Assembly: GCA_016926735.1 (NCBI GenBank) | Contig: JAFGOA010000171.1 | Coordinates: 1 to 58,205, forward strand | Direction: 5' to 3' | Length of the DNA: 58,205 nucleotides | Source of the DNA: Promethearchaeota archaeon | GTDB lineage: Archaea; Asgardarchaeota; Lokiarchaeia; Sigyniarchaeales; SOKP01 | Part shown: positions 11,719 through 13,340 of the stretch, piece after piece | Position numbering within the stretch: position 1 is the first letter of the stretch | Layout: every line of letters begins with the position of its first letter | Program-made: the position numbers and the translations under genes | Notes under the pieces: generated by a model | The model's input: only the letters and a program-made list of their open reading frames with translations | What the model was told of the DNA's origin: nothing | Database searches by the model: none

Positions 11719-12333
11719 ATGTCGATTAATCCAACTGTGAAAATAGCACCTGATGATGTTGTTCGATATTTATTATATCAACAATTTTATTATGGAGGAG
11801 ATCGTATTTATGGACGTACAAAGGATCAATTTGAATACATTAAAAACTCTGGTAAAGCAATTGAAAGATTTTATATACTTATTACAGATCCCATAAATTT
11901 AATTGATGAGGAAAATCTTGAGAAATATCTGGAATTTTTTAATAACCAAATCCACATTATTCCAATAAAAGCTATAATGGATAAATATCTTGATTATAAG
12001 AATAATTTCAATCTTGAGATGGACAGAAAGATGACACTTTCAGTTGTTATTGGTGAATGTCTTACTCAAATTCATACTGACTGTTTTAATAAAACTATCA
12101 ATCATTTTATTGATTTTATAATAGAAAAAAGGAAATTAAAAAATCCCCAAAAACAGGAAATTAAAAAAAAAATTGAATCTTTATATTGTAGAAGTAATCC
12201 CTCTATTGGAATGCTTTATAGTCTAAGTTTCATGAATTTTATTGCTGAAAAATCGGGTTACGACTCAATTTCAAAAAAATGTCAAGAATTATTGATAAAA
12301 AACTATAATATTCTTTTAGATATTATTGAATGA
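11719..12333 (+). CDS. Hypothetical protein, 204 residues, helical
   Basis: I recognise no family. The sequence is soluble and mainly helical, with a motif-like start (APDDVVRYLLYQQFYYGGDRIYGRTKDQF) and a lysine-rich stretch near residues 140-150. The ATG lies just after an A/T-rich divergent promoter region. It ends with a TGA, showing that UGA is a normal stop codon in this genome, which matters for the convergent selenoprotein gene that follows. Confidence 0.65.
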   Translation: MSINPTVKIAPDDVVRYLLYQQFYYGGDRIYGRTKDQFEYIKNSGKAIERFYILITDPINLIDEENLEKYLEFFNNQIHIIPIKAIMDKYLDYKNNFNLEMDRKMTLSVVIGECLTQIHTDCFNKTINHFIDFIIEKRKLKNPQKQEIKKKIESLYCRSNPSIGMLYSLSFMNFIAEKSGYDSISKKCQELLIKNYNILLDIIE

Positions 12334-12477
12334 GAGATTATTTTATGGAATACCCTCTATAGTTCAAATTTTTAAAAAATTTCTTTATATAATCTCTTAA
12401 TTTTGTTTTAGTAAAGTGTGGCTAACTTAAAGGAATAAAATGTCATTATGATTTTCAATTATATTCCCACTAAATCC

Positions 12478-12960
12478 CTATTTATTTATTTTTTTTAATT
12501 CATCAATAATCTCTTTATTTTCAGGAATATCATGCATGTTGTCACTATAATACGCATATCTTATAATTCCATGTTTATCAATAATTATTAATCCAGGCAT
12601 TCTTCCCATTTTCAGAATTTTTATTTCTTGCCTTAAAATTTTAGCTATGTTTTTTTTTTTATCATAAAAAATTGGAAATACTCTAGCATATTTTTGTTGC
12701 ATTTTTACAGCATTTGTTTTGTTATCAACTAAAATGGGGTATAAAAATGTGTCAAGTTCTTTAAATTTCTGAAAATCTTTTCTTAAGTGAACTAGATGTC
12801 TTTTACAATATGGTCAATATATACTCCTTAAAAGAATTATAACAATATTTTTTTTATTTAGTAAACTCTTGATATTAATAAGTTCTCCATTTGTATTTGG
12901 CAATTCAAATTCCTGTATCCTTGTCCCTACTAATTGAAATTTATCTTTAATCTTAATCAC
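12478..12960 (-). CDS. Peroxiredoxin-like selenoprotein (AhpC/TSA family), Sec at codon 49
   Basis: Thiol/selenol peroxidase. From GTG at 12960 the frame reads as a full AhpC/TSA-family protein of 160 residues: F-E-L-P-N-T-N-G-E-L strand, the hydrophobic VIILLRS strand, then Y-(TGA)-P-Y-C-K-R-H-L, and a C-terminal GLIIIDKHGIIRYAYY strand typical of the redoxin fold. The only stop inside is the TGA at 12814-12816, exactly where the family has its peroxidatic Cys in a W/Y-C-P-Y-C-R/K motif, giving U-P-Y-C. Selenocysteine coding is established for Lokiarchaeota. An annotation starting at the internal ATG (12702) would lose the active site. No convincing SECIS was recognised by eye. Confidence 0.82.
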
Positions 12961-13340
12961 CTTAATAAATTTACTTATGAAATAGAGGATATTATTATAT
13001 CTAAAATCTATTTTTATAAAAAATAGATGGTTCTTTATAAATAAATTAGCTATAAAATAGTAAAATTTCTCTTAGATATTTTATATCTTTAGCTAAATAT
13101 AATTAAATAAATGGATATGAAATAAAATTGGTTATAACTATAATAATCTTAGCTAATGCTTTTTAAATTTAATAAATGAAAGATATTTTTCAGTATAAGT
13201 TATTTATTTTCGAATTTCTTAAATTCTGTTTTTCATTAATGATTAATGATTAAAATTCATGAATTCATGAATAAGAAAGTATATAATTCACTTATTCATA
13301 TCTTCAGTAAAAAATCTTTAAAAAGAGAAGAGAATTACCT
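12961..13340. other. Intergenic region with divergent promoters and regulator operator
   Basis: No coding signal is visible. The left part is the leader of the selenoprotein gene on the minus strand. The right part carries TTAATGATTAATGATTAAA direct repeats (about 13236-13254) and the 18-bp palindrome at 13255-13272, ahead of the HTH/GyrI gene. Confidence 0.5.
13255..13272. promoter_or_regulatory. 18-bp perfect palindrome, candidate operator
   Basis: ATTCATGAATTCATGAAT equals its own reverse complement and is also a tandem pair of ATTCATGAAT-like half-sites. It lies 68 bp before the ATG of the ArsR/GyrI-like regulator, beside TTAATGATTAATGATTA repeats. Autoregulation is the simplest inference. 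Confidence 0.6.

Follow-up and report, generated by a model that had tools for sequence, protein, structure and literature searches.

The analysed window is the whole of contig JAFGOA010000171.1 (58,205 nucleotides, forward strand), which is contig 222 of the 3.88-Mb, 99% complete assembly GCA_016926735.1 of a Promethearchaeota archaeon of the Lokiarchaeia (genome G000). Its minus strand carries a gene, here termed prxL, with the following coding features:

12478–12960, minus strand: prxL coding sequence with a GTG start (or a nearby alternative), a TAG stop and 160 residues, selenocysteine (Sec) being residue 49
12814–12816, minus strand: in-frame UGA read as Sec (U49), a TGA in 48 of 49 homologues
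12805–12807, minus strand: TGT codon of Cys52, the second residue of the UxxC motif, aligned to the peroxidatic Cys of true peroxiredoxins

The frame runs from the GTG at 12960 through a lone in-frame TGA (12816–12814) to the TAG at 12480–12478, and U49 lies in the context LLRSIY-U-PYCKRH. Residues 11–135 match the Pfam family AhpC-TSA (PF00578; E=7.9e-20, 71.5 bits against a cut-off of 26), and Redoxin is also matched, which confirms the AhpC/TSA-type protein with a single internal TGA described in the first-pass annotation. A single-sequence AlphaFold model of the product reached a pLDDT of 43, too poor for use. Several window ORFs terminate in TGA and no gene-like TGA read-through frame besides prxL was found in the window; UGA is thus an ordinary stop elsewhere, in agreement with the earlier view that it is not a general sense codon.

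Across 228 genomes of the phylum, protein searching found 49 PrxL homologues with at least 41% identity, 48 of which contain the in-frame TGA; every one of the 18 genes in the prxL codon alignment has TGA here. G000 itself carries a second prxL copy, 72% identical and with the same TGA. Comparison of the two copies gives a dN/dS of 0.18 ahead of the TGA and 0.17 after it, the latter value indicating that selection acts on a translated stretch beyond the UGA. The gene could still be read as a pseudogene, a Cys peroxiredoxin whose TGA arose by nonsense mutation or sequencing error, and broken tandem copies do occur near some PrxL genes (genomes G119 and G114). However, the identical codon in nearly all homologues and in the own-genome paralogue, together with purifying selection equally strong behind it, leaves a vanishingly small probability for this reading, which sequence conservation refutes for the family as a whole. 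The first-pass argument that a chance nonsense mutation was unlikely is thereby borne out.

The only close homologue without Sec (L042, genome G081) has Asp in its place (motif DLFC); it has kept Cys52 and lost the 3' RNA element described below. In the paralogues with the motifs UPYS or UPYA (L041, L045, L046 and L047) Sec is kept and the partner Cys52 is gone, so that U49 is the constant, indispensable residue; such copies suggest a one-Sec mechanism, as judged from the motifs. Other PrxL paralogues contain two in-frame TGA codons, giving the motifs UANU and UGHU (L050 and the tandem copies L053 and L054, which adjoin a UPYC copy); each has its own three-way-junction element, and formation of a diselenide would be possible in these proteins. 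Decayed or frame-broken PrxL copies were also observed (L057/L019, L016/L058 and L114). The 3' element is intact in L016 and L114, as though the RNA had outlasted the gene or the frame break were due to sequencing error.

The genome encodes SepSecS (E=5.5e-109), SelD, itself with an in-frame TGA (HGUSCKLG), EFSec, assigned by sequence (MDILNKIPVNLGLFGHIDSGKT...HRGITIDLGFTSF), and a PSTK-like protein (E=2.8e-40); the PSTK and SelB matches lie under the curated cut-offs of models built for other groups. A tRNA-Sec gene is located directly upstream of SepSecS (L005 183–340, G000 contig 7, plus strand). It was missed in a scan with RF01852 at E≤0.001 and was found later as a weak match beside SepSecS, the low score being explained by two inserts, one of 31 nt in the T loop and one of about 32 nt in the D loop. 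With the inserts removed, the tRNA has a 9-bp acceptor and a 4-bp T stem (9/4), D stem, anticodon stem and variable arm of 6 bp each, and a UCA anticodon (CUUCAAA). ARAGORN made no tRNA-Sec call even on this spliced form, and standard finders thus miss the insert-bearing gene. The length of the T-loop insert equals that reported for the Lokiarchaeal tRNA-Sec intron, 31 nt (PMC9499178), and the insert in the D arm may be a second intron. The absence of Sec machinery, which the first-pass annotation had named as grounds for abandoning a selenoprotein, is therefore contradicted by the Sec genes and tRNA-Sec of the same genome.

Further selenoprotein genes accompany this machinery. Sec-type VhuD with two TGA codons (CWKUGYG and GUYP) is encoded behind a Sec-containing HdrA (CSIUILGP) on each of two G000 contigs, 231 and 50 (L087 and L088), and both 3' regions contain an AUGA hairpin and a side hairpin. 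The nearest relative of G000 VhuD, among the 80 Lokiarchaeota/Lokiarchaeia relatives kept, is 84% identical (isolate bin106). In a phylum-wide search for the FlpD family most copies had Cys, and a closer query was used instead. A second, distant Prx-like family with the motif FF[R/I]GxxUxx[U/C] has one or two in-frame TGA codons (L059–L063 and L065–L067). One of its genes, L060 (genome G154, contig 10), shows a third TGA where Gly is usual (SULLIDFF), which may be a sequencing error, a sign of decay or an additional Sec.

It could be argued that the UGA of prxL is read by near-cognate suppression as Cys or Trp, the evidence for Sec in this organism coming from sequence. This is very improbable given the Sec pathway genes and tRNA-Sec of the genome, the alignment of the TGA with Cys positions of CxxC homologues, and the ordinary stop function of UGA in the rest of the window. 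Sec machinery, a conserved TGA, purifying selection beyond it and a conserved 3' RNA element strongly support the selenoprotein proposed from the first reading, and prxL is almost certainly a selenoprotein gene.

The position of Sec within the active site differs from the original proposal, which placed it at the peroxidatic Cys. In an alignment with solved structures and Asgard peroxiredoxins (reference motifs PAAFSPVC of 2cx3 and YPKDNTPGC of a peroxiredoxin of the same genome), U49 falls opposite the Thr/Ser of PxxxT/SxxC, and the peroxidatic Cys column, three codons after the TGA, is occupied by Cys52. The window sequence RSIYUPYC has Arg for the Pro and Sec for the Thr of the typical peroxiredoxin site. 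PrxL is therefore a UxxC Prx-like oxidoreductase rather than a peroxiredoxin with a peroxidatic Sec. The comparison with Cys-containing homologues proposed at the outset did place Sec against Cys, namely the first Cys of CxxC proteins, which have Cys at both 49 and 52.

Directly behind the prxL stop codon lies a conserved RNA element composed of the following parts:

12404–12477, minus strand: three-way-junction SECIS-like element (76.6 bits, E=7.8e-17, covariation)
12470–12476, minus strand: 5' arm of the basal helix, GATTTAG, pairing with 12405–12411 (double changes in 5 of 7 pairs)
12405–12411, minus strand: 3' arm of the basal helix, CTAAAAC (covariance model, covariation)
12432–12467, minus strand: hairpin 1, a 10-bp stem GGAATATAAT/ATTTTATTCC with the loop TGAAAATCATAATGAC (double changes in 9 of 10 pairs)
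12414–12428, minus strand: side hairpin AAGT-TAGCCAC-ACTT with an invariant UAGC loop (double changes in 4 of 4 pairs, 96.7% paired)

Hairpin 1 of the window contains one T-T mismatch, and its loop ends with GA on the 5' side and UGA on the 3' side. The loop sequence of the side hairpin, TAGC[C/A]A, is part of a conserved segment behind the stop of Sec-PrxL genes with more than 40% identity. A covariance model was built from 34 sequences with a structure-guided alignment. When 46 distinct sequences were aligned to the model, 95.4% of cells paired, a share that fell to 56% when the partners were slid by one column; double changes occur in 18 of 21 pairs against 8.7 in shuffled alignments, none of 500 shuffles reaching 18. 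A plain MAFFT alignment, made without fitting to the structure, still gave double changes in 16 of 21 pairs against 7.5. All 46 matches with E<1e-6 in the 228 genomes immediately follow a PrxL gene or its remnant, the next best match having an E-value of 3.7e-4, and no such element was found behind the non-Sec homologue of G081. With zero false strong matches in these genomes, the model is also a practical finder of PrxL selenoprotein genes. An Rfam scan of 12300–13100 returned nothing. The GA and (U)GA that flank the hairpin 1 loop on its 5' and 3' sides occur in 27 of 46 PrxL elements against 3.0 in shuffled loops and are missing in about 40% of the elements, several clades being without them; an A-rich apical loop, GAAAA, is found in the window element and most relatives. 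The junction is very probably the prxL SECIS. The first-pass annotation had suggested 12340–12480 as a place to search for a SECIS; the place was right, and what lies there is not a canonical eukaryote-like SECIS but a three-way junction that lacks the AUGA_GA core.

In the Asgard model of Huang 2024 (PMC11227280), a SECIS consists of two stems with an A-rich loop at the apex and AUGA_[G/A]A as the core, and the survey gives type I eSECIS-like as the main form for prxL. The loose published pattern, in an ungapped version rewritten here, matched 73–85% of dinucleotide-shuffled sequences and is thus not specific. A strict core, defined as RUGA, at least seven perfect pairs and NGA, was present in the first ~110 nt behind 84% of VhuD and 35% of SelD genes and none of 47 PrxL genes. 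Within 600 nt it was found in 69 of 82 VhuD, 28 of 43 SelD and 2 of 45 PrxL regions, the last against 3 of 135 shuffled sequences, and it was not found in the 600 nt after the window prxL. PrxL elements therefore lack the canonical core, and an ordinary eSECIS for PrxL was rejected, the strict core appearing only at the shuffled rate.

The prxL SECIS might nonetheless be an ordinary type I eSECIS-like element, the junction serving, for instance, as an mRNA-stability or terminator structure. This would agree with the assignment of most prxL genes to type I in the survey (PMC11227280) and with the location of the element near the transcript end, T-rich stretches then following in many species. 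It is nevertheless unlikely, because the strict core is missing from the 600 nt after the window gene and the loose pattern is unspecific, and because the junction abuts the stop codon, occurs only with PrxL and is missing with the non-Sec homologue; moreover, in VhuD and SelD the same three-way plan contains the eSECIS hairpin.

Behind the VhuD and SelD genes of G000 and its relatives, the classical AUGA hairpin is joined by a basal helix and a short side hairpin (for example, CCACC-TGCGA-GGTGG, CCAAC-TGCGC-GTTGG, ATGG-GAGCA-CCAT and AACCAT-TAGCT-ATGGTT). A blind search recovered the three-way plan in 91% of VhuD, 81% of SelD and 85% of PrxL regions against 11, 10 and 13% of shuffled sequences; when the side loop had to contain GC, the figures were 80, 58 and 83% against 0.5–1.7%. 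The basal helix, hairpin 1 and GC-loop side hairpin that define this plan are all present in the window element. In the SelD model, double changes were found in 4 of 5 side-hairpin pairs, with helix pairing of 80% that is explained by a subset in a shifted register; for VhuD the evidence is the presence of the side hairpin rather than covariation, as the stem hardly varies within a class. By inspection, an AUGA core and a GC-loop side hairpin are also present in most 3' regions of the second Sec-Prx family. Since these three groups share the core and the three-way plan, a bipartite SECIS looks general in Lokiarchaea, and the PrxL element looks, from its sequence and predicted pairing, like a bipartite variant without the canonical core.

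A single apical loop is attributed to Lokiarchaeal SECIS in one review. No description of the side hairpin was found in the open literature, and an earlier drawing of it may exist. Pending comparison with the 2016 paper of Mariotti, the PrxL RNA element is a new form of the known Asgard SECIS.

In summary, selection keeps the prxL UGA as a sense codon in a genome that has the Sec machinery, and a conserved junction is tied to Sec; the most plausible explanation, with a probability of about 0.88, would be a PrxL selenoprotein gene with a three-way-junction SECIS. The junction in the prxL mRNA would act as the SECIS, in which an L7Ae/L30e-type kink-turn binding protein may read the GA/UGA hairpin, or another structure in the PrxL variant, and the GC-loop side hairpin may be a second contact site, used perhaps by EFSec or the ribosome. 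Through both contacts, EFSec carrying Sec-tRNA(Sec) would reach the UGA, which lies about 340 nt upstream. The product would be a thioredoxin-fold oxidoreductase with Sec49 as the nucleophile, which Cys52 would resolve as a selenenylsulfide (UxxC), a cycle suggested by the anatomy of the active site; peroxides or disulfides would be the substrates reduced. The failure of a Lokiarchaeal SECIS in Methanococcus maripaludis (PMC11881835) counts against the assumed SECIS function.

The eukaryotic SECIS is contacted at two regions, by eEFSec at one and by SBP2 at the other (PMC11881835). A conserved side hairpin in SECIS elements from the closest archaeal relatives of eukaryotes offers a concrete second site for testing, and it may bear on the failure in Methanococcus. 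Archaea are without SBP2, and we know of no archaeal SECIS-binding factor. The PrxL element suggests that the AUGA_GA core is not strictly required in Lokiarchaeal cells, which bears on the origin of the eukaryotic element. More tentatively, and with somewhat less than even odds, all Lokiarchaeal SECIS elements would be bipartite three-way junctions in which a kink-turn-type arm is combined with a GC-loop hairpin replacing SBP2 as the second site, the kink-turn of the eSECIS core being permuted in PrxL to a kink-loop at the tip of the arm.

The archaeal box C'/D' kink-loop, marked by tandem G-A pairs beside a terminal loop, is a target of L7Ae and, like hairpin 1, consists of a stem topped by GA, a loop and UGA (compare the window loop given above). 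The likeness is one of sequence only, with the motif in 27 of the 46 PrxL elements; as a hypothesis, the GA/UGA loop would resemble a kink-loop in having the kink-turn strands in permuted order. The eSECIS-like elements of Lokiarchaeal VhuD/HdrA, FrhA and SelD agree with the PrxL element in their 3' UTR position next to the stop (in the window the element starts directly after the TAG), the A-rich apical loop, the basal helix and the short side hairpin with an [AU]GC loop, tested for VhuD and SelD. Unlike them, PrxL has no [A/G]UGA_GA quartet at the base of the stem of at least 7 bp, GA and UGA flanking the apical loop of hairpin 1 instead; the side hairpin lies outside the published model. 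The euryarchaeal SECIS (eaSECIS) likewise occupies the 3' UTR behind archaeal selenoprotein genes, but by inspection PrxL has neither the GAA_A bulge between two stems nor three consecutive G/C pairs, its 10-bp stem leads straight to the loop with no upper stem, and it has two hairpins where the eaSECIS has one.

At the protein level, Sec-peroxiredoxins (TxxU) and typical peroxiredoxins (PxxxTxxC) belong to the same fold family (PF00578, Redoxin), whereas Sec of the window protein stands at the T position (UxxC) and not at the peroxidatic one. SelL proteins are characterised by the motif UxxU, which also occurs among the PrxL paralogues; PrxL matches the SelL-related profile NF040769 weakly (E=3.1e-13) and, being UxxC, scores far under the cut-off (49.7 against 120 bits). 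Prx-like (PrxL) selenoproteins of Asgard archaea were reportedly described by Mariotti in 2016. The window gene agrees with them in its AhpC/TSA-like domain, its conserved UGA aligned to Cys, and its Lokiarchaeal host with a full Sec pathway (the Sec trait requiring at least three machinery genes and a selenoprotein), and differs in its three-way junction without the type I eSECIS-like core that the survey gives for prxL (PMC11227280). The UxxC Prx-like oxidoreductase family has already been reported in Asgard archaea (Huang 2024, PMC11227280), and the window gene is a new member of this known selenoprotein family, with a corrected reading of its active site.
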